This document shows, piece after piece, positions 7,032 through 53,343 of a stretch of 53,343 nt of DNA. Position 1 is the stretch's first letter; the number at the start of each line of letters is the position of its first letter. The position numbers and the translations under genes are program-made. Origin of the DNA: Candidatus Accumulibacter aalborgensis (GTDB lineage: Bacteria; Pseudomonadota; Gammaproteobacteria; Burkholderiales; Rhodocyclaceae); NCBI RefSeq assembly GCF_900089955.1, contig NZ_FLQX01000109.1, forward strand, positions 1-53,343, in the 5' to 3' direction. Below the pieces are notes generated by a model that was not told the DNA's origin, did not search any database, and saw nothing but the letters and a program-made list of their open reading frames with translations.

Positions 7032-7109
7032 CCAGGCGTCGGCGGGCGCCGAGTGGCGGTGAAGGAATCAGCCAGTCACGGTTCGGTGTCTTGACTCTCT
7101 TGCCGTGGC

Positions 7110-11346: not shown

Positions 11347-11351
11347 CTCGT

Positions 11352-11373: not shown

Positions 11374-11425
11374 CGGGCGCACTATTGTGAGTCGCTCGCG
11401 CGACTTTAATTGTCAGGAGATCGCC

Positions 11426-14378: not shown

Positions 14379-14473
14379 CTGGCGGCCGGATCTTGTCAGT
14401 CGCCAAACAGTTCAGCGATGGTTTGCATCGACGTCAACAGGGCTGTAGGATGTGCTGACGAAAGGGAATCCAC

Positions 14474-15430
14474 ATGATTAGACTACAAGCGGCAGCATCG
14501 TCAGCCATTGTCGGCAGTTGGTATGCCATCGACAAGTCAGGCAGCTTGCTGTTCACCTTCCTCAGCAACGGCACCTACCTGCTCAAAGATACCGGTGATA
14601 GCGCGGCCGACCCGAGTGGGCATAGTGGCATGGAACTGGGCACCTACACCTGGGATGCCGGCACAGGCGCTCTTGCGCACAAGACGCTGATCGATACCGA
14701 TGGCGAGTGGGGGCTGTCCCATGCCATCGTCTCTTCGATCAAGGTCAGCGGCGGAACCCTGACCATGTCGTTGGTTGGCGAGGACGAGGTTTCCCTGACC
14801 AAGGTCGCCGCCAATACGATCACCGGCACAAGCGGCAATGACCAGATGAGAAGCACCGCCAGCAACGACGTGGTGGACGGCGATACCGGTCTGGACAGCT
14901 ACGTTCTCAATGGAGTCAGGCATGATTTCACGATCACGCAGACCCCCATCGCTTACACCGCCCACGACAACACAGGGGCGGAAGGGGAGGACACCCTGAT
15001 CCACGTCGAGCGTATCAAGTTCACCGACGAGAGCGTTGCGCTGGATGTCGCCAACGGCCCTGCCGGCACCACCGCCAAGATACTTGGCGTGGTGTTCGGG
15101 CCGTCTGCTGTCGCCAACAAGACCTTTGCTGGCATAGGTCTGGCCTTGCTCGATGGCGGCATGAGCTACCCGGACCTGATGATGGCGGCTCTGACAGCGA
15201 AGCTGGGCGACCATTTCTCAAATGCGGCGGAAGTGGACCTGTTGTACCAGAATCTTTTCGGTCATGGCCCGACTTCGGACGAATCGACCTTCTGGTCCAA
15301 CGCCATCGATGCCGGCCAGTTCTCTCAGGCCTCCCTGGCCATTGCTGGCGCGGAACTGGGCATCAATGCCAGCAACATCGACCTGGTCGGCTTGCTGCAA
15401 ACCGGTCTGGAGTACCTGCCGCACGCGTGA
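14474..15430 (+). CDS. Probable secreted protein with Gly/Asp-rich segment and DUF4214-like tail
   Basis: A 318-residue acidic protein with no cysteines and no classical signal peptide. Residues 10-110 form beta-rich sequence (VGSWYAIDKSGSLLFTFL) of the kind found in lipocalin-like modules. Residues 115-195 contain a degenerate hemolysin-type stretch (ITGTSGNDQMRST, VVDGDTGLDSYVL) and the phrase IKFTDESVALDV, which in RTX-like proteins follows the calcium repeats. The final 110 residues, with VDLLYQNLFGHGPTSDESTFW, resemble DUF4214/type I secreted adhesin tails. I infer export by a type I secretion system through the C-terminus, although no transporter is encoded here. An AAAGGGAA segment precedes the ATG. 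Role unknown; a matrix or surface protein is possible. Confidence 0.65.
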   Translation: MIRLQAAASSAIVGSWYAIDKSGSLLFTFLSNGTYLLKDTGDSAADPSGHSGMELGTYTWDAGTGALAHKTLIDTDGEWGLSHAIVSSIKVSGGTLTMSLVGEDEVSLTKVAANTITGTSGNDQMRSTASNDVVDGDTGLDSYVLNGVRHDFTITQTPIAYTAHDNTGAEGEDTLIHVERIKFTDESVALDVANGPAGTTAKILGVVFGPSAVANKTFAGIGLALLDGGMSYPDLMMAALTAKLGDHFSNAAEVDLLYQNLFGHGPTSDESTFWSNAIDAGQFSQASLAIAGAELGINASNIDLVGLLQTGLEYLPHA

Positions 15431-38635: not shown

Positions 38636-38842
38636 ATGCTCGCGCCGATCATTGCCATCTCGGGAATGTTCACCTTCGCCTGGACCGCCAGCGTCCTGGT
38701 CACCATCGTCGACATGGGACTGAAGCTGCCGCCGACGCGAGTCGACCTAAAGGCGATCACCGAAAAGTATCACGCGGCCGCAGCGAAGCAGGAGCAAGCC
38801 GCCGCGGGCAAGAAGCCGTCAACACCGGCCGGCAAGGCCTAG
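38636..38842 (+). pseudogene. Chimeric relic: channel-like membrane helix joined to a PPK2 C-terminus
   Basis: The frame gives EWRMLAPIIAISGMFTFAW, TASVLV, then DMGLKLPPTRVDLKAITEKY and a Lys/Ala-rich tail. The second half matches residues 251-285 of PPK2 (DMGLKLPPTRVDLQEIAVKY). The first half, a single hydrophobic helix after a W-R-x-L-x-P phrase, resembles the last membrane helix of Ion_trans_2-type channels; that resemblance is from memory and less sure. The reading has an ATG at 38636 but no plausible function, so I treat it as a recombination relic. Its TAG overlaps the stop of the convergent GGDEF-EAL gene. Confidence 0.7.
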
Positions 38843-41010
38843 ATCCGCAGGCTGTGCTGAGCGAAGGAAGGGTATCGGTCGTCGTCGTGGCCAAACGACA
38901 GGACGGCGGGCGTGCATAATTCCTCGAAGTCGGCCAGCGGCAATGGGCGGCTGAACAGGTACCCCTGATACGCATAGCAACCCTGTCGGGCAAGAAAATC
39001 CCTCTGGGCCTCGGTTTCCACACCCTCGGCGATGACCTCCAGTCCGACACTCTCGGCCAGGGCGATGATCATCCTTGAAATGGCCGCATCATGGCGGTCG
39101 GTGAGGATGTTCCCGACGAAGCTCTGGTCGATTTTGAGTTGATCCAGGGGAAGCCGCTTCAGGTAGGCAAGAGAGGAATAGCCGGTGCCGAAGTCGTCCA
39201 GTGAGAAACCCACGCCCCTCGTTTTCAGTGCCGTCATCTTGGCGATGGCGCTTGCTTGATCCTTCACCAGTAGGCTCTCGGTAAGCTCCAGTTTGAGCCG
39301 GTGCGCGTTCGCTCCCGTGCGCTCGAGCACCGCCAGCACCTGGTCGACAAAGTCATGGTGGTGAAGCTGACAGACGCTCACATTCACCGCAATAATGAGA
39401 TGGGCCATCTCCGGTCGGGCGGCCCAGAGGGCGAGCTGGACGCAGGCAGTCTCCAGCACCCAGAGGCCCAGGGGAAGGATCAGGCCGGTTTCTTCGGCGA
39501 CGTGAATGAATTCGAGGGGAAGTACCAGTCCGCGCTGCGGATGCTGCCAGCGCAACAGCGCTTCGACTCCGGTCAGACCGCGCTGGCCATCGACCTGCGG
39601 TTGATAGAAAACACGAAACTGATTGTTCGGGAGCGCCTCACGCAAGGCCGCTTCGAGCAGCGCGCGAATCGCGACCGCCGCCTGCATCTCCGGTTCGAAG
39701 AAGCGCAAGGTGTCTCGGCCTGCAGCCTTGGCCTGGTACATGGCGAGATCGGCCTGCTTCAGCAGATCGTCGACGCTGCCCTGGCTATCGGATATGAGGG
39801 TGATACCGATGCTCGGCGTGCTGCTATAGGTGTACTCGGCAAGTTGGTACGGTTGGTTCAGCGTGGTCAGGATCTTCCTGCCCACCGCGTCGGTATGGGC
39901 GATTGCCTGGTGCAGGCTCTCGCCCAGGTTTTCAAGCATCACCACGAATTCGTCTCCCCCCAGTCTGGCCACTGCGTCACCCTCACGCACACAGGTCGTC
40001 AGGCGCTTGCCGACCTGCTGGAGCAGCAAATCGCCGATGTCATGGCCGAGCGTATCGTTGAGGACCTTGAAGTGATCGAGATCAATAAACAGCAGCGCGC
40101 CATATTGTTTACTGCGTGCTCTGGCGGCAATCGCTTGCTTGAGGCGGTCGATCAGCCGCCGGCGGTTGGGCAGGCTGGTCAAGGGGTCGAAGAAGGCCAG
40201 ATTCCTGATCTCGTCTTCTGCCGCCTTGCGCGCGGTGATATCTTCAGCCGAGGAAAGCGTTCCCGTCACAGCACCCGTCTCGTCGCGCAGCAGGGTGTTG
40301 TTCCAAGCCATCATCAAGGCCCGTCCTCCAGCCGTCATGATGCGATTCTCGTAACGTTCGACAAGGCGCGTTTTTCCCGCCATGAGGCTTGAAAAAACCT
40401 GGCGAAGCGCTCCGATTTCGTCGTCGGGAATGAAGTGTTCGAACCAGTTCATGCCCACAAGGCTGCTTTCGGGCAGGTCAAGAATCTGCGCTCCTTTCCT
40501 GTTGATCATCGTGATTCGCCCATTTCGGTCAAGCGCCATGAGCATCACACCAGCCACATCGAGATACCGCTTCACCAGATCTCGCTCCTTGGCCAGTTCG
40601 CTGGTTCTTTCTGCCACCTGATGTTCAAGCAGTGATCGGTGCCCTTCAATGACTCGCCGCTGCTGTCGCTCCTCCATGATCAGCGCCACCGTGAACGAGA
40701 AATTGCGAATATGGTCGATATAGGGCGCAAACGCTTCGCTATCGGTCACGCTGAAAGCCAGTTCGCCGAAATCGCTGGACCCTGCGGTGAGCCGGAAGCG
40801 CAGGCTGGAATCCTTCCCGTTGGCAACACTCGCTTGAAAAGCAACCAGACTGACCCCCGGAACGTCGCCAAGCCCTTGCACCACGAACGGAAGAATGGCC
40901 GTGTCAGGGAGCGAAGCGACGACGCTTTGCATCAGCAGGAGTTGCCCGAGCACTCTGGCATCGGGTACGGAATGTCCGATCATTTCGCGATCCCGGAGGG
41001 TCAGCAGCAT
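38839..41010 (-). CDS. PAS - GGDEF - EAL c-di-GMP protein
   Basis: A 723-residue protein with an N-terminal ~120-residue sensory part, a coiled coil near 110-145, a PAS domain at ~145-265, a GGDEF domain at 270-437 (GGDEF at 351-355, inhibitory site REGD at 342-345), and an EAL domain at 450-700. The EAL residues are all present: EALLRW at 483-488, N543, ELTES at 575-579, DDFGTG at 605-610, K626 and EGVET at 662-666. It could therefore both make and degrade c-di-GMP. Its start overlaps the MEDS gene by 10 bases, so the pair is translationally coupled, with MEDS likely the signal input. GAGGAA lies about 10 bases before the ATG. Confidence 0.92.
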   Translation of the reverse strand: MLLTLRDREMIGHSVPDARVLGQLLLMQSVVASLPDTAILPFVVQGLGDVPGVSLVAFQASVANGKDSSLRFRLTAGSSDFGELAFSVTDSEAFAPYIDHIRNFSFTVALIMEERQQRRVIEGHRSLLEHQVAERTSELAKERDLVKRYLDVAGVMLMALDRNGRITMINRKGAQILDLPESSLVGMNWFEHFIPDDEIGALRQVFSSLMAGKTRLVERYENRIMTAGGRALMMAWNNTLLRDETGAVTGTLSSAEDITARKAAEDEIRNLAFFDPLTSLPNRRRLIDRLKQAIAARARSKQYGALLFIDLDHFKVLNDTLGHDIGDLLLQQVGKRLTTCVREGDAVARLGGDEFVVMLENLGESLHQAIAHTDAVGRKILTTLNQPYQLAEYTYSSTPSIGITLISDSQGSVDDLLKQADLAMYQAKAAGRDTLRFFEPEMQAAVAIRALLEAALREALPNNQFRVFYQPQVDGQRGLTGVEALLRWQHPQRGLVLPLEFIHVAEETGLILPLGLWVLETACVQLALWAARPEMAHLIIAVNVSVCQLHHHDFVDQVLAVLERTGANAHRLKLELTESLLVKDQASAIAKMTALKTRGVGFSLDDFGTGYSSLAYLKRLPLDQLKIDQSFVGNILTDRHDAAISRMIIALAESVGLEVIAEGVETEAQRDFLARQGCYAYQGYLFSRPLPLADFEELCTPAVLSFGHDDDRYPSFAQHSLRI

Positions 41011-41621
41011 CGCGCCAGATATTCCTCGGGTGGGGTATAGAATGGATTGTGGACCACCGTGCCGCGGATGATCATCAAGGGATGAACCTTGAGTACCTGC
41101 ATGATCGTCGCTCCGTCAAAAGCCCTGGCGTTGTATTGGCAGACGGCGGTTACCGGATGTTCCTTGAGCAGAAGGCTGACCCGCGATTCATACTCCATCA
41201 GGCGAGAACCACCGGGAACATGCTGTACCTCCGAGGTCATCTCACCGATGACGCGCGCCGCGGGGAAACCATTGGCGACCGAGTCGGTATGGTACTGCGC
41301 CAGTATGGCAAGCATGCGGTCGGGGTCGAAGCGGCCATCCTGAAAATAGACATCGTGGGTCCCGGCATTCGAGAACGTTCCCGACTCCTTGAGTTGGCCA
41401 TACGACATATTCCGTTCGGCCAGATAGCTATCAAGATGGGCTTCATCGAGTTGCTCGGTGAAGCACGCGGTTCGCTCTCCTGCCTGCAGACCGCTGCGCA
41501 GAAATTCGAGCAAGGCATGCAGTCTTTCCCCCTCGCTGGCGAAAACCTGGCAGACATGTACACCGGCCGGAAATGTCTGCTGCGTAAACCCGAGAGACAC
41601 CATCTGCGGTTCGTTCGCCAT
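41001..41621 (-). CDS. MEDS-domain sensory protein
   Basis: A 206-residue single-domain protein of the MEDS group (named for methanogen/methylotroph DcmR sensory domain). It has GVHVCQVF near residue 22, the family's H-x-C-like motif, AGERTACFTEQ, and the downstream stretch RVIGEMTSEVQHVPGGSRLMEYESRV (broken: RVIGEMTSE, LMEYESRV). The ATG at 41621 is fixed by AGGAG 10 bases upstream. The domain is thought to bind small hydrocarbons or related ligands and feed partner domains. Here it overlaps the GGDEF-EAL gene and has a palindromic site at its probable promoter, suggesting ligand-controlled c-di-GMP signalling. Confidence 0.82.
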   Translation of the reverse strand: MANEPQMVSLGFTQQTFPAGVHVCQVFASEGERLHALLEFLRSGLQAGERTACFTEQLDEAHLDSYLAERNMSYGQLKESGTFSNAGTHDVYFQDGRFDPDRMLAILAQYHTDSVANGFPAARVIGEMTSEVQHVPGGSRLMEYESRVSLLLKEHPVTAVCQYNARAFDGATIMQVLKVHPLMIIRGTVVHNPFYTPPEEYLARCC

Positions 41622-41686
41622 GGCCGTTCTCCTGCGTATTTTTTTCACGACAAGACACCCAGAAAAACTGCTGTCATGAGTCACCT

Positions 41687-41701
41687 TGGCCACAGTGGCC
41701 A
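41687..41701. promoter_or_regulatory. Palindromic operator-like site upstream of the MEDS gene
   Basis: TGGCCAC (41687-41693) and GTGGCCA (41695-41701) form a perfect 7+7 inverted repeat around a single A. On the minus strand it begins about 8 bases after a TATACT box, so it would overlap the transcription start, the usual place for a repressor. Confidence 0.5.
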
Positions 41702-41708
41702 CACTTTG

Positions 41709-41714
41709 AGTATA
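41709..41714 (-). promoter_or_regulatory. Probable -10 box TATACT for the MEDS/GGDEF-EAL operon
   Basis: TATACT on the minus strand, 88 bases before the MEDS ATG and just upstream of the palindrome. No good -35 hexamer at the normal distance. Confidence 0.4.
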
Positions 41715-41818
41715 GCCCCATGCCTCATCGCAAGGGTGGAATCTCGATTGCTGGCGTCAGCGGTATCCTCGTCGAGGCGATTCTCTGCGCCGGCGCAGCC
41801 CATTCGCCTGTGGAACGT

Positions 41819-43246
41819 TCAAGGCGTGAGCGACGTGGCGACATCCTTGACGGCAGCCTGGAGCATTGCAACGTCGTCAAGCGTCGTTTGCCAGTTGTCG
41901 AACGCGGCGCGAATCGCCGCCTGGCCATTCCAGATGGTTCCGGTGACGAACGCGCGGCCGTCTTCCTGGATGGCGCGAACCGCCAGGCGGTTGAGTTCGT
42001 CGGTCGCCGCCTTTCCGCAGCCCTCGCGGACAATGCGAAAGCAGACGATGTTCAGCGGTGCGGGATTCATCAGTTCGACGTCGGGCGTCGCCTCGACCCA
42101 GCGTGCAAAGGCGGCTGCATGGTCCACGCAGCGCTCGACGAGCGCTCGGTAGCCCTCCCGGCCAAACGCCTTGAGCGCACACCAGGCGGCGAGCCCGCGG
42201 AAGCGGCGTGACATTTCCGGAACATGCGTGAACGGGTCCCAGCCGCCGCTGCCGACGACATAGGCGCCGCTCGCAGCAAACGCTTCGCGCAGGATGGCCC
42301 CGTCGCGAACGAAGGCGAAGCCGCTGTCGTAAGGCACGTTCAGCCACTTGTGCGCGTCCGACGCAACGGAGTCCGCCCGCTCGATGCCGCGCGTCAGGTG
42401 CGCGAGCCGCGGCGACGCGCTGGCGAAAAGGCCGAATGCGCCGTCCACATGTAGCCAGGCGCCACCGGGGTGGGAATCGCGCAGATCGGCGAGCGCGGCG
42501 ATGTCGTCGAAGTGGCCGCTGTTCACCTCGGCCGCGTTGCCGACGATGATCACCGGTCCGTCGATGTCGCGCAGCAGGGTCGCCAGCGCCGCGATGTCGA
42601 CCGAGCCGCCCGGCGCCGATGCCTTGCGCACCTGTTTGCGGCCAAGGCCGAGAGTGCCCAGGCATTTGACGGCGCTGAGGTGGATCTCCGTACTGGCCAC
42701 GACGACGATCGGCGAATGACCCGCGAGCCCTTCAGCCGCCGCATCAAAGCCCAGTCGCCGGCCGGCCCACTGGCGCGCCGCGATCAGGCCGACGAGGTTG
42801 GCCATCGTCGCGCCGCTGGTCAGCGCACCGGCCCACTCGACAGGCAAACCGAAAAGTTCCTTGAGCCAGCGCAGGACGACGAGTTCTGTTTGCGCCGCAG
42901 CGGGGCTGCTCGCCCACAGCCCCGCGTTCTGGTCGATCGCCGAAGCGAGCCAGTCTCCGGCCAGTGCGGCTGGCGTCACGCCGCCGGTCACGAAACCGAA
43001 GAAGCGAGGACCTGGCGACGCAGTGATGCCGCGTTCGGCGCGCTCGAACCACTCGTCAACCACGGCGGCAGGATCGCTTCCGGTCTCCGGTAGCGGCTCG
43101 TCGAGCGCCGCTGCCATTTCGTCCGGGGAGGGCGCGCGACTCACCGCGCGCTCCGCCAGCGAGGCGAGAAAAGCGTTGGCCAGTCCGTGCGCCCGTGCGA
43201 GCGCGCGTTCCGTCGCCGCGGCTTGCGCATCGCGTCCGGCGTTCAT
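41819..43246 (-). CDS. PLP-dependent group II amino acid decarboxylase
   Basis: A 475-residue fold-type I decarboxylase of the aromatic/glutamate/aspartate family. The PLP-binding Lys300 lies in SDAHKWLNVPYDSG, the cofactor-pairing WLHVDGAFG precedes it at 264-272, and His189 in STEIHLSAVK stacks on the ring. It removes the carboxylate of an amino acid; the substrate is not clear from sequence. It is the last gene of a four-gene operon with ligase, MBOAT and carrier genes, 3 bases after the carrier stop. If it feeds the ligase the product must keep a carboxyl group, which favours aspartate to beta-alanine or glutamate to GABA; this is inference. Confidence 0.88.
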   Translation of the reverse strand: MNAGRDAQAAATERALARAHGLANAFLASLAERAVSRAPSPDEMAAALDEPLPETGSDPAAVVDEWFERAERGITASPGPRFFGFVTGGVTPAALAGDWLASAIDQNAGLWASSPAAAQTELVVLRWLKELFGLPVEWAGALTSGATMANLVGLIAARQWAGRRLGFDAAAEGLAGHSPIVVVASTEIHLSAVKCLGTLGLGRKQVRKASAPGGSVDIAALATLLRDIDGPVIIVGNAAEVNSGHFDDIAALADLRDSHPGGAWLHVDGAFGLFASASPRLAHLTRGIERADSVASDAHKWLNVPYDSGFAFVRDGAILREAFAASGAYVVGSGGWDPFTHVPEMSRRFRGLAAWCALKAFGREGYRALVERCVDHAAAFARWVEATPDVELMNPAPLNIVCFRIVREGCGKAATDELNRLAVRAIQEDGRAFVTGTIWNGQAAIRAAFDNWQTTLDDVAMLQAAVKDVATSLTP

Positions 43247-43249
43247 GCG

Positions 43250-43504
43250 CTATCCCTCAGTTCTTGAATCGACGAAAGACTCGATTTCGTTGATTGAATC
43301 AAGGAGTCCGACGTCAAATTCAACGCTGGAAAAATCAATGCCAAACGACTCCTCCAGGTGCATGACCAGCATCATCATGGAGAAGGAATCGAGTCTGCCG
43401 CTGACGAAAATTGATTCGCTATCCGTGAGATCGTTCCGATCACCGTGTTTTGCCAAGGTTTCCCTGAGAAATTCGCGCAATTTCTCTTTACCGCTGATGT
43501 TCAT
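43250..43504 (-). CDS. Acyl/aminoacyl carrier protein (DltC-like)
   Basis: An 84-residue acidic four-helix carrier. The phosphopantetheine site is Ser40 in GRLDSFSMM, equivalent to the DSL motif. It is co-encoded with an amino-acid adenylating ligase and an MBOAT membrane acyltransferase, so it should shuttle an aminoacyl thioester between them, as DltC does. Its start shares a base with the MBOAT stop. Confidence 0.85.
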   Translation of the reverse strand: MNISGKEKLREFLRETLAKHGDRNDLTDSESIFVSGRLDSFSMMMLVMHLEESFGIDFSSVEFDVGLLDSINEIESFVDSRTEG

Positions 43505-45009
43505 TAACTCACTCCAAACAGGCTGGCCAAAAAAGAGAGACGTTCACCGAGGGTGTGGTTGCGCGACTCGTCGCTGAAGACATGCAGGCAGACGACAAAC
43601 GACCAGACGAAGAGGAACGAATGAAGTCTGCCAAAAAAAGTCGCCGAGGGCTTGACTCCCATGCTCGCACGAACCTGAGAGACGCCGACACCGGTCGCCA
43701 GAATGAGGCAATAAAAGGCATAACTGGTGTAAGTCTCAAAAGCTCCCGCCAGACCCATTGTGGCCACCACATCGATATCCCGGATGAAGTGCCAGATGGC
43801 ATTCCCCACACCGGCGGCCATGAAAGTGGCGAAGAACATGCGCAGACGTGGGTGATTGCGAAAGGTCGTGAAGAAGGTCGGCAAAAAGAAGAAATCAACC
43901 AGCAGCTCCTTGAAATAGTAACTGAAGCGATTGAAATACTCCATCAGTGTTCTTGACTCAAGTGGCCGCCAGGTATTGCGCGCCAGTCTGAAGCCTGCCA
44001 ATCGCGCTACGCCAACAAATAAATGACCGCCATATGCCGCCTTCAAACAGAATTTGGTTGTCGACCAGATCAGCGATGCCCAGCCGACATGAATCGAAAA
44101 AGGTTGATGGTGGAGAAACGCATCCATCGCCAGTTCCACACTCGGGACTTGCAGGTGATCTTCAAAAAACCAGGTGAGCGCTAATTTTAGCGCGAGCAGT
44201 ATGTTGGCCCAAAGGAGCAACTTGAGGCCCTTGATTTGCGTGACTGCGAGGTCTCTAGGCGTCTTCGACAACGCCTTGCGCAGAAAGGCAGCCCCCTTGC
44301 CAATCGGAATCGACGAGCTACTCCAGAAGGGGCGAAAAACGCCCAGTTGAAAAAGTGGTGGACTAGCCTCACGCGAGCGCTGATCGATGATCGCATAAGC
44401 CAGAAACCACAGGTAGCGCGTGTAAACGATCAGGATCGAACACAGGAGCACACGAGACAAGCCTTGAACGCCGTCCAGAGACGTGAGGCCGCACAGGACT
44501 GCCGCCAGCCCGATCAACGTCATTATGGGTCGGCGCGCAAAGAACCAAGTCTTGTCGCGGCGAGCCAACCACAAGGTGCACCATGCACAGATGAGAAAAA
44601 ACAGCGTCGCTCCACAGGCCAGCGCCAGTGGCGAAATATTCTCCACGTATTCCTGTTCCATCACGTTACTGATGTAGTCCGGAACAAAAGTCTTCGAGAG
44701 CCACAAGTACAAGAATGCGACCACCCACGTCGCACCGAAGATGATTGCGTTGCGGTATTTCGGAAAAAAAGCGGACGCCATGGCGGCGCCAACGACCAGA
44801 GCGGCATGCCACCAGTCGTAACTCGTTGACACAGTTGCCAGCGCGACAAGACCAATCACCAGTCTGCCAATCATGATCTGGGCGAGCGCGATGCAATTTT
44901 CTCGCTCGTCTATCGCCAGAATGCCGCGCAGCCTTCGTCCGTCAAATAGCGTGCTGCCGACGCGCTGCAGAGGATTTGGCGTGCCAGTTTCGGTAGGCAT
45001 CTGGTTCAT
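43504..45009 (-). CDS. MBOAT-family membrane acyltransferase (DltB-like)
   Basis: A 501-residue integral membrane protein with about ten to twelve hydrophobic helices. The MBOAT signature region includes FNRFSYYFKELLVDFFFLPTF and the presumed catalytic His407 in GNAIWHFIRD, with a second His at 476. MBOAT proteins transfer acyl or aminoacyl groups across the membrane to an exported acceptor. Its place between an adenylating ligase and a carrier protein copies the order dltA-dltB-dltC, where DltB moves D-alanine to teichoic acid; in a Gram-negative the acceptor would be a lipid, glycan or exopolysaccharide. Start ATG overlaps the ligase stop (ATGA). Confidence 0.78.
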   Translation of the reverse strand: MNQMPTETGTPNPLQRVGSTLFDGRRLRGILAIDERENCIALAQIMIGRLVIGLVALATVSTSYDWWHAALVVGAAMASAFFPKYRNAIIFGATWVVAFLYLWLSKTFVPDYISNVMEQEYVENISPLALACGATLFFLICAWCTLWLARRDKTWFFARRPIMTLIGLAAVLCGLTSLDGVQGLSRVLLCSILIVYTRYLWFLAYAIIDQRSREASPPLFQLGVFRPFWSSSSIPIGKGAAFLRKALSKTPRDLAVTQIKGLKLLLWANILLALKLALTWFFEDHLQVPSVELAMDAFLHHQPFSIHVGWASLIWSTTKFCLKAAYGGHLFVGVARLAGFRLARNTWRPLESRTLMEYFNRFSYYFKELLVDFFFLPTFFTTFRNHPRLRMFFATFMAAGVGNAIWHFIRDIDVVATMGLAGAFETYTSYAFYCLILATGVGVSQVRASMGVKPSATFFGRLHSFLFVWSFVVCLHVFSDESRNHTLGERLSFLASLFGVS

Positions 45010-46589
45010 GGAGATTCTTGGTCGAGCAACTGAAGGAGTGCGCGACGGTCCACCTTTCCGCTTGCGTTGAGCGGCATGTGCTCAAGGGCAATAAGCCGGC
45101 TCGGAACCATGTAAGCCGGAAGCCGCGCCTTGAGGTCGGCAATGATCTGGTCGCTGTCGATCGTTTGGCCACCGACAAAGCTGACCAGCCCGCGCGCCAT
45201 CCCGTCCAGCGAAGGCCAGGCGACCGATCCGACGACATCCGCGTGGCTGACGATGCGCAAGTGTGCGTCGACCTCCTCCAGTTCTACTCGATAGCCCAGA
45301 ACCTTCACCTGGTTGTCGATGCGGCCGAGGCAATGAAAAGTCCCGCCATCGTCGCGCATCGCCAAATCTCCGGTCCGGTACCAGCGCTGGCCGTCAAGCA
45401 TTGGAAAGCGGGCCGCCGTCAGGTCGGGCGCGTCGAGATAGCCTTCGGCAATCTGGGCACCGGCGACCAGCAGTTCTCCCGTCGCGCCGTCCGCCACGAC
45501 CTCACCGTTTTCGCTCACCACCATGGCTTCGCTACCCGGCAGCGGCGTGCCGACGGCCACGAAGTCTCGCCCTGGGGTAAGTGGAATCGGTCTCGTAATC
45601 GCTTGACCAAGGCAGAAAACGGTCACCTCGGTCGGACCATAGAGATTGTAAACCGCGCTGTTGGTGGCCGTCGTTTGCCAGGCCGCCACGGTTCCCGCGG
45701 GGAGTTGTTCGCCACCGAAAACCGTGACCCGTAGATCAGGCAGAATACCGGGACTGAGGGCCTTGACCTGGCGCAGCATGCCAACCAGAGATGGCACTGA
45801 GTTCCACACCGTCAAGCGGGACTGGCGCGCGAACTTGACGGCATTCATGACTACCGTTGCCGGCAGGATATGCAGCGATGCGCCCGCCTGCCAGGTCGAA
45901 AACATATTGTGCACCGAGAAGTCGAAGCTCAGCTCGCAGGGCTCGAGCGCCCGGTCGCTGGCTCTCAGGTCCAACAGAGGGGTGATCACCTCAAGGTAAT
46001 GCCGAATCGACCGTGTCGGGATCATCACACCCTTCGGAACCCCCGTCGTCCCGGAAGTGAAAATGATGTAGGCGGTATCATTCGCCTCCATCGGCTGTGG
46101 TTCGCCAGCTTCGGTAGCCGGCAAAGACTCGATGTCTACCAGCTCGACTTGGCTGTCCGGCGGCGCATCCAGCTCATGCGCCGCATGAATCACCAGAGAC
46201 GGGCAAGCGCCCAGCACCCTCCTGCTGAGCAGCTTTGCTCCCTCTTGGTCAGCGATGATCGCCGAGAGACGACAAAGAGACAACAGCGTGAGAAGGCGCT
46301 CCTCTGGAAGTTTCAGACTGAGCGGAACATAAGTGGCACCGGCCCAGCACGCGCCAAGCAAAGCAACGCAGGCATCAATCCCGCGCGAAGCCAGGATGCC
46401 CACTCGCGGCGGGGTGCCGTCCTGGCGCTGCCAGTTGGCGCGGCGCGTCAGGCATTCTGCCAGCGACGCCGCGCGCTCGGCCATCTCTCGGTAACTAACC
46501 GAGCGGTCTTTGTAGACCACAGCGATAGCGTCTGGCGTTGCGAGGCTGTGGCGATGCACTGCGCACGCCAGGTTATAGTTGATGGACAT
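45006..46589 (-). CDS. Amino-acid adenylating ligase (DltA/NRPS A-domain-like)
   Basis: A 527-residue stand-alone adenylation enzyme. Core motifs are IIFTSGTTGVPKGV (A3), SFDFSVHNM (A4), NLYGPTEVTV (A5), YRTGDLA (A7), GRIDNQVKVLGYRVE (A8) and NASGKVDRRAL (A10 with catalytic Lys). The Asp in FDFSV occupies the position that binds the alpha-amino group in amino-acid-specific domains, so an alpha-amino acid substrate is favoured; this is inference. It should activate an amino acid as AMP ester and load it onto the carrier encoded two genes later. It heads a four-gene operon (41819-46589); no thioesterase or condensation domain is attached, so it is not a peptide synthetase. Confidence 0.88.
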   Translation of the reverse strand: MSINYNLACAVHRHSLATPDAIAVVYKDRSVSYREMAERAASLAECLTRRANWQRQDGTPPRVGILASRGIDACVALLGACWAGATYVPLSLKLPEERLLTLLSLCRLSAIIADQEGAKLLSRRVLGACPSLVIHAAHELDAPPDSQVELVDIESLPATEAGEPQPMEANDTAYIIFTSGTTGVPKGVMIPTRSIRHYLEVITPLLDLRASDRALEPCELSFDFSVHNMFSTWQAGASLHILPATVVMNAVKFARQSRLTVWNSVPSLVGMLRQVKALSPGILPDLRVTVFGGEQLPAGTVAAWQTTATNSAVYNLYGPTEVTVFCLGQAITRPIPLTPGRDFVAVGTPLPGSEAMVVSENGEVVADGATGELLVAGAQIAEGYLDAPDLTAARFPMLDGQRWYRTGDLAMRDDGGTFHCLGRIDNQVKVLGYRVELEEVDAHLRIVSHADVVGSVAWPSLDGMARGLVSFVGGQTIDSDQIIADLKARLPAYMVPSRLIALEHMPLNASGKVDRRALLQLLDQESP

Positions 46590-46968
46590 GGTTTCCGGGC
46601 TCGAAAAGGGTCGCTTTATCGAAATGTGACTAACGCTGCGTGCCCAAAGACCGCCGCGTTCTCAGGTCGCCCTAATCCCGCACCGAAATCAATGAAGGGC
46701 GTTGCGCAAGTTTGGTGAGCACCTGATCTATTGAAAGGGAGGTATCGACGATACCGGGATCGAGACCTGCAGACTCGGCCGAGTGGCGCGACAAGAAGGA
46801 TGGAAAATACCACCGCAGGGGCAGGAGTATAGGTGCGCCGATCAACGGCGGTCAAGGTCGGCTCTCGCTGCGGCGAGACCCTGAGCACAGACCTTTGCCT
46901 GGCTCGGTCTCGCCAGGTAAAGGCCGGTGAGGCGATTGGTCAGGACCGGCGAGTGCCCGGCTACCCGG
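46590..46968. other. Upstream region of the Dlt-like operon
   Basis: About 380 bases without a convincing gene. The promoter of the ligase operon must lie here on the minus strand. I see no clear hexamers, repeats or riboswitch-like structure. Confidence 0.35.
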
Positions 46969-47421
46969 CTATTCCGGCGAGTGCGAATCGATACTGATCG
47001 TCACCGGACCGTCGTTGATCAGGTGCAACTGCATCTCGGCGCCAAAGACGCCGGTGTGGACCTGGCGGCCAAGCGCCTGCTCGAGATGCTCGACAAAGCG
47101 CTCGAACAGGGGCTGCGCCAGTTCCGGTCGGGCAGCGCGACTCCAGGAGGGGCGATTGCCCTTCTTCGTCGAAGCGAAGAGGGTGAACTGGCTGACCGCC
47201 AGAATCTGACCCTGGGCCTCGACGACGCTGCGGTTCATTACCCCGCTCGCGTCGGCGAAGATGCGTAGCCTGGCAAGCTTGGCAGACATCCAGAGCAGAT
47301 CGTCCTCGGTGTCGCTGGCTGTGAAACCTGTGAGGACGAGCAAGCCCGAGCCGATGGCGCCGACCACCTGTCCGCCAACCTCAACCCGCGCCGATGCGAC
47401 TCGCTGCACGACGACTCTCAT
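46969..47421 (-). CDS. dtd: D-aminoacyl-tRNA deacylase
   Basis: A 150-residue enzyme that frees D-amino acids (and glycine from tRNA-Ala) mischarged on tRNA. The diagnostic motifs are SQFTLFAST at ~77-85 with the catalytic-pocket SQ, and NDGPVT at ~136-141, the cross-subunit proline motif. It begins [15 protein letters not shown], the universal start. Length is normal (E. coli 145). It lies upstream of the Dlt-like ligase operon in the same direction but 379 bases away, so shared transcription is uncertain. Confidence 0.93.
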
Positions 47422-47487
47422 GGCGCTGCCCTGGCGCCAGGCCTCCGCTGGCTGCAGACCGCCGAGGGCGGGCGCCGGTGCTTCAGT

Positions 47488-47634
47488 TCACTCGTCACGG
47501 AGGCACGCCTCGCCTGTGGTCGGAGGTCGTGACGCAAGCCAGGCGGCAAAGGCGGCGAGGGCCAGCGACGGGCTGTCGGTCACCCTGTGTCCGCCGTCGC
47601 CGTGGCGGGTGTGCGCTTGGGGGTCGTCGCTCAT
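47488..47634 (-). CDS. Possible small protein upstream of dtd
   Basis: A 48-codon frame beginning MSDDPQAHTRHGDGGHRV and containing an Ala/Leu-rich helix (SLALAAFAAWLAS). It lies 66 bases upstream of dtd in the same direction. There is no strong ribosome binding site and no family I recognise, so it may be chance. Confidence 0.2.
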   Translation of the reverse strand: MSDDPQAHTRHGDGGHRVTDSPSLALAAFAAWLASRPPTTGEACLRDE

Positions 47635-47676
47635 GGTCGACGCATTCTAACCAGAAACGTCGCGCAGGACGTTCAT

Positions 47677-47840
47677 CCTGAAAACCTCTGTTGGCGGGGA
47701 AAATCCCGTTCATGCTTCGACAGGCTCAGCACGAACGGGATTTTCTCGGCTCACCCAACGGGTGAGCTTCCGTTCGCCCTGAGCAGCCCGCGTAGCGGGC
47801 GTGTCGAAGGGCTCTCTTGTCATCAACCGAGGTTTCTAGG
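47677..47840. mobile_element. MITE-like element A after hsdR
   Basis: A 164-base non-coding element with terminal inverted repeats CCTGAAAACCTC and (complement at the right end) CCTAGAAACCTC. It is flanked by the 5-base direct repeat TTCAT (47672-47676 and 47841-47845). Inside are three hairpins: 47700-47711 with 47733-47744 (12 pairs), 47749-47756 with 47760-47767 (8 pairs), and 47786-47791 with 47795-47800. A copy in opposite orientation lies at 50860-51039. It begins 2 bases after the hsdR stop and could also act as a transcript end. Confidence 0.8.
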
Positions 47841-47841
47841 T

Positions 47842-50800
47842 TCATCGGCTGGTGATCGCGTACACCATGTCGCCGACGAAGCGCCGGAACGACTCGTTCT
47901 CGACGAACTGCTTGTAGACCAGCGTGTCGTCCTTGAGGAGGATTTGCATCACTTTGTTCAGCGCCTGGTCGTGCGCCACGCGCGCGGTGTGTGGCGTGTT
48001 CTCTTTGGCGTTCTGGTAGCCGGCGTTGGCGGCGACCTTCGGCGCGATGTCGTCCAGGATGCGTTTGACGATGCGATCGGCGTCGTCGAACAGCGTGCCG
48101 AAGTGGTCGTTGAAGGTCTTCAGTATTTCGCTCAGGCGGTCGAGTTCGGGTTGAGGCTGGTGACCACCGCCAGCCGTCGGCGCCGGTTCGATCTCGGCGT
48201 CGGCGTCGGCCAGCGCGATCTTCATCGCCGCCTTCTTCTCGACGCGGTAGGTATCCATGTCGATCGTTTCGAGGATGCCATGGGCGAGGTCTTCCTCCTG
48301 CGGCGCCGGTAGCTTGGCCGTGAGCAGGTTGAGCAGGATCGAGAGCTTCTCCCATTCCGGGTTGCTGCACGGCATGACGGCGGCGAGGAAGTCGTAGGCG
48401 CGGCAGAACGCCCTGGCCTTGCCCTTGAAGTCGACCTGCTGGTCCTCGTCGAGCGTGTCGGTGTACACCGCGACACATGCGTCGAGGAGAGGATCAAGGC
48501 GCTCGCGGTCGGCGCCGGCGAGGAACAGGGCGACGAACTCCTGCACCTGCGCCGGCGAGTACACCTCTGCGCCATCGAGCGCCAGCTTGAGGTCGTGCAG
48601 CTTGTTGGGGTCGGTCTCGTCGGCGAGCAGCGTCGTGCGGTAGTAATCCTGGAAGGCGAAGGTGATCGCCTCGCTGTTGTTCTGGAAGTCGAGGACGAAG
48701 CAGTCGTGCTTCAGCGGATGCGCGCGGTTGATCCGCGTCAGCGTCTGCACCGCCTTGATTCCGGCAAGCGCCTTGTCCACGTACATCGAGTGCATCAGCG
48801 GCTCGTCGTAGCCGGTCTGGAACTTGTCGGCGCAGATCAGGAAGCGGTACGGGTCGCTCTGAATCTTCTCGGCGATGTCGCCGCTGGCAAAGCCGTTCAC
48901 CGACTCCTCGCTGACCCTGGCGCCGCCGCCACCACTCTCGTGCTCGCCGGAGAAGGCGACGATCGCCCGGTACGGGCTCTTGCGCTCGACGAGGTAGGCC
49001 TGGAAGGCGTGGTAATACTGGATCGCGTGCGCTATGCCGCTGGTGACCACCATCGCCCGCGCCTGGCCGCCGATCTTGCCGGCGGCGAGCACCTGCTCGT
49101 GAAAGTGGTCGACCATGATCTCGGCCTTGAGCCGGATCGCGTGCTCGTGACTCTCGACGTAGCGGCGCAGCTTCTTCTTCGCCTTCTTCTTGTCGAACAG
49201 CGGATCGTCCTCGATCTTCTTGATCAGCTTGTAGTAACTGTCGACCGGCGTGTAGGCCTTGAGCACGTCGAGGATGAAGCGCTCCTCGATCGCCTGCTTC
49301 ATGGTGTAGCTGTGGAACGGCCGATGCCTCACCTTGCCCTCGGCGTCGGGCGGCAGCGCCTCGCCGAACATCTCCAGCGTCCGGTTCTTGGGTGTCGCGG
49401 TGAACGCGAAGTAGCTCGCGTTGGTCAGCATCCTGCGTGCCGCCACGCGCGCTTCCAGCGCGTCGTTCACCGTATCTTCGGGGTCGACGGCCTCGCCCGA
49501 ATCGCCCGTCGCATTAGCCAGGACGCGGCTCATTGCCGCCGTGGTCTTGCCGCCCTGGCTCGAATGCGCTTCGTCGATCAGGATGGCGAAGGTCTTGTCG
49601 CCCTGTGTGGCGATCTCGTCGAGGATGAAAGGGAACTTCTGCACCGTCGAGACGATGATCTTCCTGCCCTGCACGATGAAGCGGCGCAAGTCGCCCGAGT
49701 GCTCGGCGTGGCCGACCGTCGCGCCGACCTGCATGAACTGCTTGATCGTCGTCTGTATCTGGGCATCGAGGAGGCGCCGGTCGGTGACGACGATCACCGA
49801 GTCGAAGATCGCCTTGCCATCGCGCTTGACGCCGATGAGCTGGTGTGCGAGCCAGGCGATCGAATTCGACTTGCCGCTGCCGGCCGAGTGCTGGACGAGG
49901 TAGCGCCGTCCGGCGCCGTGGTCGCGCACGTCGGCCAGAGACAGGCGAACGACGCCGAGCTGGTGGTAACGCGGGAAGACCTGCGTGCGTTTCTTCCTGC
50001 CCGTCCTGGCGTCCTTCGTCTCGACGACCTGCGCGTAGTTCTCGACGATGTCGGTCAGGCCCGCCGGCGTCAGAATCTCCATCCACAGGTAGTCGGTCTT
50101 GAGACCGTCGTTGGGCGGGTTGCCGGCGCCGTCGTGGTAGCCCTTGTTGAAGGGCAGGAACCACGAACCCTTGCCCTTGAGTTCGGTGCACATCCGCACT
50201 TCGCTGTCGTCGACGGCGAAGTGCACGACGCAGCGGCCGAACTGGAAGAGCTTCTCGCGCGGGTCGCGGTCGCGGCGGTACTGCTCGACGGCATCCTCGA
50301 CGGTCTGTTTGGTGAGGCGGTTCTTCAGTTCGAAAGTGATGATCGGCAGGCCGTTGATGAAGAGCCCGAGGTCGAGCGCACGGCGTGTCTCGTCGCTGCT
50401 GTAGGCGAGCTGGCGAGTGAGCGAGAAGCGGTTCTGCGCGTACAGCGCTGCCGCCTTGGCGTTACCTTCCGATGGCGTAGCGTGGAACAGGTCGAAGTGG
50501 CCGGCGGGATGGTGGTCGATTCCCTTGCGCAGCACGTCGATGACGCCTCGCCGGCCGACCTCGGTCGACAGGCGGGCGAGGAACTTCAGGCGGTTGAGGT
50601 TCCTGGCGTCGCCGGTGTCGGCGATCGAGAGCTTCCTGAACGCGTCGGGCTGCGTAGTGCGCAGGAAAGCGAAGAGTTGCGGCACGTCGAGCGCGTGTTC
50701 CCGGTCGTAGTCCTGTGCGCTGCCGGCGAAGTAGCCCGTTCCGCCGTAGGGCGCGGGCGCCTCGGCGACCATGCCGGGCGTGACTTTGATGCCGTCGCTG

Positions 50801-50859
50801 CCGGTCATGTGGCGCATGATCAGCGTTTCGAGGCCTTTTTCGCTGGTGTCGGTGGTCAT
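47842..50859 (-). CDS. hsdR: Type I restriction enzyme R subunit
   Basis: A 1005-residue motor nuclease of a type I restriction system. The N-terminal nuclease site is Asp163 plus FELKN (Glu177-x-Lys179). The helicase has a Walker A HSAGSGKSNS near residue 330 and a DEAH box in LIDEAHSSQGG, followed by SF2 motifs (LTRINRAHP). It cuts unmethylated DNA after translocation, with HsdM and HsdS. The ATG at 50859 is preferred; a GTG at 50883 would start inside the mobile element. The Shine-Dalgarno AGAGG that serves this ATG lies within the element's terminal repeat. hsdM is not in the window. Confidence 0.92.
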   Translation of the reverse strand: MTTDTSEKGLETLIMRHMTGSDGIKVTPGMVAEAPAPYGGTGYFAGSAQDYDREHALDVPQLFAFLRTTQPDAFRKLSIADTGDARNLNRLKFLARLSTEVGRRGVIDVLRKGIDHHPAGHFDLFHATPSEGNAKAAALYAQNRFSLTRQLAYSSDETRRALDLGLFINGLPIITFELKNRLTKQTVEDAVEQYRRDRDPREKLFQFGRCVVHFAVDDSEVRMCTELKGKGSWFLPFNKGYHDGAGNPPNDGLKTDYLWMEILTPAGLTDIVENYAQVVETKDARTGRKKRTQVFPRYHQLGVVRLSLADVRDHGAGRRYLVQHSAGSGKSNSIAWLAHQLIGVKRDGKAIFDSVIVVTDRRLLDAQIQTTIKQFMQVGATVGHAEHSGDLRRFIVQGRKIIVSTVQKFPFILDEIATQGDKTFAILIDEAHSSQGGKTTAAMSRVLANATGDSGEAVDPEDTVNDALEARVAARRMLTNASYFAFTATPKNRTLEMFGEALPPDAEGKVRHRPFHSYTMKQAIEERFILDVLKAYTPVDSYYKLIKKIEDDPLFDKKKAKKKLRRYVESHEHAIRLKAEIMVDHFHEQVLAAGKIGGQARAMVVTSGIAHAIQYYHAFQAYLVERKSPYRAIVAFSGEHESGGGGARVSEESVNGFASGDIAEKIQSDPYRFLICADKFQTGYDEPLMHSMYVDKALAGIKAVQTLTRINRAHPLKHDCFVLDFQNNSEAITFAFQDYYRTTLLADETDPNKLHDLKLALDGAEVYSPAQVQEFVALFLAGADRERLDPLLDACVAVYTDTLDEDQQVDFKGKARAFCRAYDFLAAVMPCSNPEWEKLSILLNLLTAKLPAPQEEDLAHGILETIDMDTYRVEKKAAMKIALADADAEIEPAPTAGGGHQPQPELDRLSEILKTFNDHFGTLFDDADRIVKRILDDIAPKVAANAGYQNAKENTPHTARVAHDQALNKVMQILLKDDTLVYKQFVENESFRRFVGDMVYAITSR

Positions 50860-51039
50860 CCTGGAAACCTCTGCTGATGACACGAGAGCCCTTCGACACG
50901 CCCGCTGCGCGGGCTGCTCAGGGCGAACGGAAACTCACCCGTGGGATGAGCCGAAAAAATCCCGTTCTGCTGAGCCTGTCGAAGTATGAGCCTGTCGAAG
51001 CATGAACGGGATTTCCCCCCGCCAATGGAGGTTTTTAGG
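50860..51039. mobile_element. MITE-like element B between hsdS and hsdR
   Basis: A 180-base copy of element A in inverted orientation, with terminal repeats CCTGGAAACCTC and (complement) CCTAAAAACCTC. It carries one extra copy of a CTTCGACAGGCTCA-type unit. It is flanked by TCAT on both sides, which on the minus strand is ATGA. It therefore sits between the hsdS stop (TGA) and the hsdR start (ATG). Confidence 0.82.
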
Positions 51040-51040
51040 T

Positions 51041-52447
51041 TCATGCCGCAATTTCTTCGTCGATGATTTCAGCTTCGTCGCCAAAGTCGACGGCTTCGTC
51101 GGCGGTTTCGGACTGGGCTTCATCGGGCAGTTTCGCCGCTGCCTCGCGTACGTCGAGCTTGCCGGTCACCACATCGGCGACGAGGCGGGTGCGGTATTCT
51201 CGCAGCAGCTCGATCTCGCGTGCGAGCCGGGAGATGGCGTGCGTCAGTGTGCGCGTCTCGGCCTGGATACGCGCGAGCAATTCATCCTGCTCGGGCAGCG
51301 GTGGAATCGCCAACTTGAATCGTTTGAGGTCCTCACACGTGATGGCACCCTTCGTGCTGCCGGCATCTTCGCTTGATGCGCGAAGTTGCAAGTACGCAGC
51401 CGTCAGCGCGAGATGAAGGAACGCGGCAGTTGTGATCGGTACTCGCGGAGTGATGAACGCGATATGCTGATTGATGGTCGCCTCGAAACCGAGCACAGCA
51501 GACATGCCGCGCGTCTTCCCTTGGCCTGTAATGGCCACGAGCACGCTGCCAGCCGCGACTTTGGGAAGATGGCACTCGCGCAGCGCGGCTGCGGTCACGA
51601 ATTGGTCAGCGCTATCTATGAAACCGCGGTTTACTTGAGAACTGTTGAGCCAAGGACAGACCCCTTTTGTCCAGTAGCCTGGGTTGGCACGAGAAGGCGT
51701 CGAGCCGTTGCCTACCCGGGCAAAATGACTAACACGCCAAACTTCCCAGTGCTGTGGAATGTCGCCGAGCCAAGGGGTGCCTGTGGGTTTGAGAAACACG
51801 GACGGGTCGAGGCCGCGGGTGACGGCGCGGTGGATGATGGCCTGCTTCTGTTCGTTGAGCAGCGCGATCACCTTGCGCTTTGCCCGGATCGTTCGCTCCA
51901 GCCGGCCGGTCGCCCAATCCAGAAAGCGCACGATCGCGGCCTGCTCTTCGGGCGGGGGGAAAGGTACGCGTTGCCCCCCGAAAGCAGCATAGCGGAAGTC
52001 AGTCGAACGTTCTCGAATCCCGCGAGAGAGCGCAAGAATCCATTGGGACCTCGCCATCTCGCGGACGATGAACGCATAGTAGTACGCGTTGGCGCCGCTC
52101 CTTGCCTGACAAACCGCGTAGACCGGCGTGGCTTTGCCATCGCTATCCGATACACCTACTGCTCCCGCGAAGGCATCCATCGCATGAATGACAAGATCCC
52201 CCCTGCGAATCCCTTGATAACCGAGTTCATAGATTGCTTCGGTAAAGCCAGCCAAGCGGCGGTTCTTGCGGAGTGTCACCATGCCATCACGGAAACAGGT
52301 AACGACGCCATCGTCATCTCTAACGGGACGTTCCATCTTCGTGAAGAGCCGTTTCGCACGTTCTTCATGCCAATGCGCCGGAATTATTGGCGACCAGAGT
52401 AGCCCCGACTCCTTGTACTCCGCATATGGCTTGAGGTCAGCGATCAT
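51041..52447 (-). CDS. hsdS: Type I restriction enzyme specificity subunit
   Basis: A 468-residue DNA-recognition subunit. Two target-recognition domains are separated by the central conserved helix at about 190-230 (PPPEEQAAIVRFLDWATGRL) and closed by the second at ~400-440 (PPLPEQDELLARIQAETRTL). Each domain reads one half of a bipartite site. The second domain begins WEVWRVSHFARVGNGSTPS. The ATG at 52447 is fixed by AAGGAG 8 bases upstream; a longer reading to 52582 has no such site. It overlaps the stop of the preceding DUF1016 gene by 11 bases. The C-terminal 40 residues are acidic. Confidence 0.9.
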   Translation of the reverse strand: MIADLKPYAEYKESGLLWSPIIPAHWHEERAKRLFTKMERPVRDDDGVVTCFRDGMVTLRKNRRLAGFTEAIYELGYQGIRRGDLVIHAMDAFAGAVGVSDSDGKATPVYAVCQARSGANAYYYAFIVREMARSQWILALSRGIRERSTDFRYAAFGGQRVPFPPPEEQAAIVRFLDWATGRLERTIRAKRKVIALLNEQKQAIIHRAVTRGLDPSVFLKPTGTPWLGDIPQHWEVWRVSHFARVGNGSTPSRANPGYWTKGVCPWLNSSQVNRGFIDSADQFVTAAALRECHLPKVAAGSVLVAITGQGKTRGMSAVLGFEATINQHIAFITPRVPITTAAFLHLALTAAYLQLRASSEDAGSTKGAITCEDLKRFKLAIPPLPEQDELLARIQAETRTLTHAISRLAREIELLREYRTRLVADVVTGKLDVREAAAKLPDEAQSETADEAVDFGDEAEIIDEEIAA

Positions 52448-53343
52448 CCCCGTCTCCTTGCTCGTCCTCAGCGAGATCGGCAATCTGCTCAGCCAGAACC
52501 TCCTGTTCGCGGACCAACTCGGCGCGCAGTTCTTCCTCTGAAGGCAGGACGAGTTTGTACTTGGTCGCGAAAAGCTGTTCATTCCCGTGTAGCACCGAGT
52601 AGCGGACGACCGACTGGTCTTTCCGGGCGCACAGGATGATTCCGACGGTCGGATTGTCCTGCTCGCCGCGCCGCAGATCGTCGTACATGCGCACGTACAT
52701 GTCCATCTGGCCGATGTCCTGGTGCGTCAGTTCGTCGGTCTTCAGATCGAAGAGAACGAAACACTTGAGCAGGTAGTTGTAGAAAACGAGGTCGAGGTAG
52801 AAATCCTTCGACTCGGTGCTGATGCGCTGTTGGCGGGCGACAAAGGCAAAGCCCTTGCCAAGCTCCAGGAGAAACGACTGCAGATGGCCGATGAGCGCGT
52901 CTTCGAGACTCGATTCGAGCAGCTTGCCGGTGTTGGGCAGGCCGAGGAATTCCAGCATGACGGGATCGCGAACGAAATCGCGCGGGGTGAGTGCCAGCGC
53001 GCCAATTCTTGCGGCCGCTTCTTCGCGAACGGGTAGACGATCCTGGCTCGCCAGCAGGCGCTCGTAGTACAGCGTGCCGATCTGCCGGTCGAGCGCCCGC
53101 GTGCTCCAGTTCTGCTGGGCGGCTTCATTCATGTACCACAGGCGGGTATCGGCATCTTCGACGCGCAGAAGCGATCGGTAGTGGGTCCAGCTCAATTCGC
53201 GACGCAGTGCGTCGCGAATTGGAAACAATTGAAAAAACAGCCGCATGTGGCGCAGGTTTGTGACGTCGAAGCCCTTGCCGAACGAATAGCGTTTATCTGC
53301 CGCCCCGAGGACGTTCGGTCCAAGCGCAGGCGTATCGCGGCAG
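52437..53343 (-). CDS. DUF1016 / YhcG-type PD-(D/E)XK nuclease, 5' end outside window
   Basis: The frame is open to the right edge; 302 residues are visible. The upstream part reads RYSFGKGFDVTNLRHMRLFF, the conserved N-terminal DUF1016 helix pair. The C-terminal nuclease domain has FYLDLVFYNYLLKCFVLFDLK (Asp in YLDLVFY, Asp-Leu-Lys), the PD-(D/E)XK core of this family. Such genes commonly sit between hsdM and hsdS in type I systems, exactly as implied here. Its role there is not settled in my knowledge; it may be a structure-specific or regulatory nuclease. The stop lies inside hsdS by 11 bases. Confidence 0.85.
   Translation of the reverse strand, partial: CRDTPALGPNVLGAADKRYSFGKGFDVTNLRHMRLFFQLFPIRDALRRELSWTHYRSLLRVEDADTRLWYMNEAAQQNWSTRALDRQIGTLYYERLLASQDRLPVREEAAARIGALALTPRDFVRDPVMLEFLGLPNTGKLLESSLEDALIGHLQSFLLELGKGFAFVARQQRISTESKDFYLDLVFYNYLLKCFVLFDLKTDELTHQDIGQMDMYVRMYDDLRRGEQDNPTVGIILCARKDQSVVRYSVLHGNEQLFATKYKLVLPSEEELRAELVREQEVLAEQIADLAEDEQGDGDDR

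Follow-up and report, generated by a model that had tools for sequence, protein, structure and literature searches.

A conserved ligase-MBOAT-carrier module with a proposed aminoacylation role, and its neighbouring decarboxylase gene, in Candidatus Accumulibacter aalborgensis

According to PMC12148441, the MBOAT protein of the Dlt pathway, DltB, takes the aminoacyl carrier and transfers D-Ala to DltX, onto the tyrosine of its FXYXXF motif, the transfer being completed by DltD; the same text reports other bacterial MBOATs bearing the FXYXXF motif at their own C-terminus. In the Gram-negative V. cholerae, lipid A glycinylation relies on AlmEFG, that is on a DltA-like ligase, a carrier and a transferase, AlmG, presented in PMC3783018 as an LPLAT domain protein (the AlmE/AlmF naming is reversed there relative to PMC12930378). 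Here we analyse a contig of Candidatus Accumulibacter aalborgensis (C109, one of 181 in a 4.7 Mb genome; 53,343 nucleotides, hereafter the window) that carries, in a row on the minus strand, genes for a ligase, a membrane protein, a carrier and a pyridoxal 5'-phosphate (PLP) decarboxylase. Our preferred reading, to which we assign a probability of about 0.6, is that the first three form a ligase-MBOAT-carrier module with a proposed role in the aminoacylation of a membrane-accessible acceptor, and that a chromosomal PLP decarboxylase has been joined to the module in this lineage. No description of such a trio in Gram-negatives was found in the open-access literature, most subscription journals lying outside the coverage, and no open-access paper was found that treats Accumulibacter together with MBOAT.

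The four open reading frames (ORFs) run from nt 46589 down to nt 41819 and code for a stand-alone amino-acid adenylation ligase of the DltA/AlmE type (nt 45006–46589, 527 aa), a membrane protein with a divergent, predicted MBOAT fold (nt 43504–45009, 501 aa), an acyl or aminoacyl carrier protein with an LDS serine (nt 43250–43504, 84 aa) and, in an open frame with a DAHKW lysine, a Group II PLP amino-acid decarboxylase that is probably a co-directional neighbour (nt 41819–43246, 475 aa). Ligase and MBOAT genes overlap by four bases (ATGA), MBOAT and carrier genes by one (TAATG), and three bases separate the carrier stop from the decarboxylase start, exactly as described in an earlier reading of the sequence alone (hereafter the original prediction). 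A tight array in a single genome is nevertheless no proof of a joint pathway.

Using the MBOAT as a query of genome contigs, 35 related loci were collected with flanks of up to 10 kb, 31 of them retaining at least 2 kb of sequence beyond the MBOAT gene; linkage was counted by tblastn, and genes in the fetched loci were called with a simple script, shadow ORFs included. The hosts comprise Accumulibacter, Azonexus, Dechloromonas, Comamonadaceae, Noviherbaspirillum, Nitrospirae-titled records, Bradyrhizobium and others. A ligase gene lies directly upstream of the MBOAT, on the same strand, in 25 of the 35 loci, and its final four bases are ATGA, GTGA or TTGA in 22 of these. As for the remaining ten, five end at a contig edge (L031, L041, L052, L055, L059), in L049, L051 and again L059 a ligase sits past the carrier in the opposite orientation, and in L050, L053 and L060 there is no adjacent one. 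The carrier gene directly follows the MBOAT in 30/35 loci. It is missing from that position in L050 and L060, in L053, where the contig ends, in L040, whose contig continues for 289 bases more, and in L031, a second copy that is preceded by a carrier. In none of the 35, on the contrary, was the decarboxylase found. Ligase, MBOAT and carrier thus make up a conserved and tightly coupled unit rather than a chance array, and the decarboxylase stands outside it in the relatives. The DltA-B-C-like trio that had been proposed for a Gram-negative does recur, in that order, in many genomes.

The decarboxylase matches the Pfam family Pyridoxal_deC (PF00282) with 170 bits (cut-off 27); its solved kin are decarboxylases of 3,4-dihydroxyphenylalanine (DOPA), tryptophan and tyrosine, and its HKW aligns with the PLP lysine of these enzymes, so that by family and catalytic lysine it is like the known Group II PLP decarboxylases. 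Among 28 genomes of the genus, orthologues (≈78–86% identity) occur in 16, including a partial one at a contig end in G003 and a split one in G009, where two ORFs, by eye a transposase-like pair, interrupt the gene (L100, nt 9088–11823). The MBOAT of the module (61–65% identity) is present in nine genomes, and the two occur together in three (G000, G010 and G012), on separate contigs in G010 and G012. A one-sided Fisher test over the 28 genomes, with kinship ignored, gave p = 0.985, that is no positive association. A distant decarboxylase homologue (38–40% identity) in G006, G008, G011 and G016 was excluded from the orthologue count. In the 12 regions fetched around decarboxylase genes (L091–L100, L103 and L104), no module ligase, MBOAT or carrier exceeded 35% identity, except for a 36% carrier match in L097 that belongs to the paralogous unit described below; in L098, there is a 36% match to the GGDEF-EAL gene mentioned further below. 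The neighbours of the decarboxylase differ among most of the fetched genomes. When 800 bases across the junction were compared by blastn, relatives of the module stopped by base 440 and those of the decarboxylase began at base 453 (ATG at 455), and no subject among the best 60 listed spanned the junction. The break in sequence homology therefore sits just before the decarboxylase start codon.

Most likely, then, the decarboxylase is a local neighbour and not a member of the module. The original prediction had put it in the place of DltD as part of the pathway; such a substitution is rejected in view of the missing linkage, of its location elsewhere in other Accumulibacter and of the homology break at the junction. 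The finding that the original prediction had itself named as counting against it, relatives with the decarboxylase separate from the trio, was obtained. A pathway of four genes, in which the decarboxylase would furnish an amine or act on the amino acid while it is bound to the carrier, with the MBOAT transferring the product, could account for the co-directional genes and for the 3-base gap, and accessory enzymes beside such modules do vary with lineage; all the same, we regard it as very unlikely, given the absence of the decarboxylase from the related loci, the lack of positive co-occurrence, the decarboxylase genes lying elsewhere in the genus and a ligase whose Asp235 suits an alpha-amino acid. 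What stands of the pathway first envisaged is its Dlt-like trio for activation and transfer in a Gram-negative.

The membrane protein at the centre of the module belongs to no Pfam or NCBIfam family above cut-off (a single sub-threshold Pfam match at E 0.2), PF03062 itself not being matched, and phmmer against the PDB sequences returned nothing up to E 10. An AlphaFold2 model, built on an alignment of 21 of the available MBOAT sequences, had a pLDDT of 82.3, and Foldseek placed first 6bug, which we take to be DltB, and 8jem, titled DltB, with E values of 1e-4 to 5e-4. HHAT, PORCN and LPCAT3 come next, and all of ranks 1–11 (E up to 0.19) are DltB, HHAT, PORCN, LPCAT3 or plant DGAT1, for which reason the MBOAT label of the original prediction holds at the level of the predicted fold. 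The match to DltB is a distant one, with TM scores of 0.48–0.49 by query length and 0.56–0.58 by target length and a root mean square deviation (rmsd) of 9.8. A catalytic-type histidine, His407, is invariant across the 21 aligned sequences, as are Y365 and Y433.

The C-terminus mostly reads F493-x-x-x-L497-F498-G, which is the spacing of the shuttle motif. No tyrosine was found at 495 (motif position 3) in 24 distinct complete C-termini, where A, G, M, Q, S, L or F occurs instead, and in four of the 24 a tyrosine stands one place later, at 496; the underlying alignment has 28 rows, 27 of them distinct (the window protein appears twice), and the C-termini of L040, L047 and L053 are not usable in it. 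A pattern scan of nt 41000–48000 of the window retrieved no frame ending in FXYXXF. In 15 related loci the same motif was found in 13 scattered frames, two of which are alike in the Nitrospirae loci, and none of the 13 lies at a recognisable place shared with the module. DltD (PF04914), the one SGNH family searched, is absent from the window genome at E 0.001, in a search that was positive for B. subtilis and L. lactis.

The comparison with DltABCD/DltX is accordingly mixed. Gene order and tight coupling are shared, and the predicted MBOAT fold has its nearest, though distant, match in DltB; on the contrary, the window genome is without DltD, the locus without an FXYXXF frame, and the ligase and carrier stay below the DltA and DltC cut-offs. 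The Gram-negative hosts of the module, unlike those of Dlt, have no teichoic acid. By the features tested the trio is not a Dlt member, and it may work like the first half of Dlt. With the PatAB/MBOAT-SGNH systems it shares a bacterial MBOAT and C-terminal phenylalanines at the spacing of the motif described in PMC12148441; it differs from them in that motif position 3 is not a tyrosine, in the lack of a recognisable SGNH partner next to the MBOAT (within the DltD family searched) and in a donor that is presumably the carrier and not an acyl-coenzyme A.

The ligase scores 245.1 bits against Pfam AMP-binding and 333.6 bits against the amino-acid adenylation model TIGR01733, above its cut-off of 317.4, while the two DltA models of NCBIfam gave 277.5 and 273.8 bits, below their curated cut-offs of 476 and 559.85. 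Pocket codes were read by motif-anchored alignment at positions that we take to be those of the GrsA pocket, the numbering of Asp235 included. This aspartate belongs to the FDFSV motif from which an alpha-amino-acid-type ligase had been predicted. Of 29 ligases scored, a set without L035, L046 and L048, 26 retain it, and the three exceptions are extra ligases of L049 and L051; together with the TIGR01733 match, Asp235 provides the features of a nonribosomal-peptide-synthetase-type adenylation domain and supports that prediction. Because of this retention, beta-alanine and gamma-aminobutyric acid are not favoured as substrates. The simplest way to resolve the conflict between Asp235 and the decarboxylase is to place the latter outside the system.

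The window ligase has the code DFHNVGLVFK, identical in twelve other loci and differing by one residue in two more. Elsewhere the codes are DVSSVMQIAK (Nitrospirae-titled records, 2 loci), DVHNAGVVGK (Noviherbaspirillum, 2 loci), DIHTIGLVFK (L040), DPSSRAHIDK (the L049/L051/L059 group) and DNFFMGCCIK (Bradyrhizobium, 3 loci), so that the predicted pockets differ from clade to clade. Over the pocket region, 8k4r, 4oxi and 6akd are the nearest chains of solved structure, with DltA chains ranking lower. We take 4oxi to be AlmE of V. cholerae; its code, DLHLFCLIAK (final K assumed), differs from that of the window ligase. The module likewise resembles AlmEFG in being a Gram-negative set of DltA-like ligase, carrier and transferase, and departs from it in the transferase, an LPLAT domain in AlmG and a predicted MBOAT fold here. 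Among about twelve codes taken from PMC12283262, the nearest are two for threonine, DFWNIGMVHK and DFWSVGMVHK, each agreeing at 6/10 positions, followed at 5/10 by three that we label, from their context, as homoserine, hydroxy-ornithine and Met. Threonine or a similar amino acid is thus a weak lead for the substrate.

The carrier matches Pfam PP-binding with 27 bits (cut-off 20.8) and stays below cut-off for all ten NCBIfam carrier models listed, including those of DltC (26.6 and 23.1 bits against 68 and 52.35); the best of them is an ornithine-lipid carrier model, with 42.2 bits and a curated cut-off of 130. One might see in such sub-cut-off matches to DltA and DltC the relic of a degenerate or decoupled Dlt system acquired from Gram-positives. 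This we find hardly credible, since the genes are open and keep many invariant residues across Betaproteobacteria, Bradyrhizobium and Nitrospirae-titled records, and the ligase pocket region ranks 8k4r, 4oxi and 6akd above the DltA chains. Carriage on mobile elements was also considered and rejected, plasmids giving no match and viral contigs no confirmed relative.

Computation shows the three-gene unit and that it is conserved, the MBOAT fold as a prediction, a genome that lacks DltD and a decarboxylase that is not linked to the module; the enzyme roles, the substrate and the acceptor in the scheme that follows are our proposals. The ligase, by its family, Asp235 and pocket code, would adenylate an alpha-amino acid, perhaps threonine or a similarly small one, and load it as a thioester onto the carrier. 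The carrier, to judge from fold and gene coupling, would then dock on the MBOAT from the cytoplasmic side, in the manner of DltC and DltB, and the MBOAT, with His407, would transfer the aminoacyl group directly to an acceptor hydroxyl or amine, the acceptor being, e.g., a lipid or a lipid-linked sugar. Direct transfer by the MBOAT is proposed because the genome has no DltD and the locus neither DltX nor a shuttle tyrosine. The decarboxylase, probably on the same transcript, would act on a separate substrate of its own.

The lack of DltD and of a tyrosine at the motif position would also suit a biosynthetic role in which the MBOAT acylates the amino acid held by the carrier, giving a soluble or lipid N-acyl or O-acyl amino acid; HHAT, PORCN and LPCAT3, among the fold matches, do transfer fatty acyl groups, and the best carrier model is that of an ornithine-lipid carrier. 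We consider this improbable, as the carrier scores well short of the curated cut-off of that model, no gene family other than the trio recurs beside the module in more than seven of the clustered loci, and the best fold match is DltB, a user of an aminoacyl carrier according to PMC12148441.

Beyond the 35 loci, a profile search with the MBOAT family across 398 genomes of the phylum matched 22, including that of the window. In the 12 regions fetched around distant members and paralogues, a ligase-like gene adjoins the MBOAT in ten (exceptions L132 and L136) and a carrier-like gene in about seven, in the orders ligase-carrier-MBOAT, carrier-MBOAT-ligase or MBOAT-ligase-carrier-phosphoenolpyruvate (PEP) mutase family. 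Given these pairings of MBOAT, adenylating enzyme and carrier, the module of the window is one clade of a broader group. Pocket codes vary among the distant and paralogous ligases, and Asp235 is missing from L130 and from the paralogous Accumulibacter group (GHCSHGAADK or GHCSHGSADK), whose ligase is for this reason probably not an amino-acid ligase. More tentatively, modules of this kind may represent a widespread and unnamed class of Gram-negative aminoacylation systems, in which a divergent MBOAT, needing no DltD and no shuttle tyrosine, would place a carrier-borne amino acid directly onto a lipid of the membrane or a lipid-linked glycan, the ligase pocket and the displayed amino acid being specific to each clade.

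Several gene arrangements were observed in these regions. The paralogous Accumulibacter unit, MBOAT-ligase-carrier followed by a gene of the PEP mutase/isocitrate lyase family, is seen in L135 (nt 9462–13498), L137 (nt 9594–13870) and L097, the Pfam assignment referring to L097. Distant ligase/MBOAT pairs have a gene of the phosphatidylserine decarboxylase family nearby in L133 (nt 13666–14484, by Pfam) and in L131 and L134 (by similarity). In L132 (nt 4742–10494), two similar genes of about 400 codons, one of which was scanned and gave no Pfam match above cut-off, precede consecutive genes for an FkbH-like protein, a carrier and a Pfam-recognised MBOAT. Among the Accumulibacter module loci, the carrier of L026, L027, L028 and L044 is followed at a short distance by another MBOAT (ligase-MBOAT-carrier-MBOAT), as if two acceptors shared one loaded carrier. 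In Bradyrhizobium, the ligase of L058 (nt 6731–9832) bears a fused S-adenosylmethionine methyltransferase domain, and in L056 (nt 6697–7974) such a domain is encoded directly before the ligase; L057 appears similar, and the ORFs listed for L127 showed no methyltransferase.

A number of observations weigh against the preferred reading. G008 and G011 carry both the module and, on another contig, the distant decarboxylase homologue, and in G015 the decarboxylase lies ≈7–10 kb from a paralogous MBOAT-ligase unit, that of L097, a closeness that we take as chance. A plausible ribosome site and the 3-base gap precede the decarboxylase start; because of this gap the decarboxylase is probably co-transcribed with the module, and co-transcription can be selected. 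One genome per species was compared, so a species-specific recruitment of the decarboxylase may have occurred. Accessory genes do stand beside such modules elsewhere, such as the methyltransferase of L056/L058 and the PEP-mutase-family gene of the paralogous unit. The G+C content is mixed evidence and suggestive only: against 63% for the window, the ligase gene has 62%, the MBOAT gene 54%, the carrier gene 46% and the decarboxylase gene 69%. As to the proposed mechanism, the fit of the MBOAT model to DltB is a distant one (rmsd 9.8), another invariant tyrosine, Y365 or Y433, could serve as acyl shuttle, and the threonine match of the pocket is weak, at 6/10 against 5/10 for three other codes.

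Downstream of the array come a MEDS-domain gene and, after it, a GGDEF-EAL gene (nt 38839–41702); similar pairs (≈61–64% identity) stand beside a paralogous MBOAT gene in G022 and G008 (L137, nt 6489–9546; L170, nt 5396–8276), and none was found in the fetched regions of G010 and G016 (L168, L169, L171). Upstream of dtd, genes judged by eye alone to be type I restriction-like (HsdR, HsdS and a nuclease) occupy nt 47842–53246. The dtd gene is present in 24 of the 28 genus genomes; since its surroundings, taken from ten of them, matched no other window gene at 50% identity or more, an empty insertion site is not recognisable.

If the preferred reading is true, Gram-negatives, including the phosphorus-removing Accumulibacter, would own a compact means of decorating an envelope component with amino acids, and the transferase of this decoration would be a family that Pfam and NCBIfam do not recognise. 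An MBOAT would then be able to finish an aminoacyl transfer without the DltX/DltD relay, and there would be an unassigned aminolipid or aminoacyl glycan to look for.

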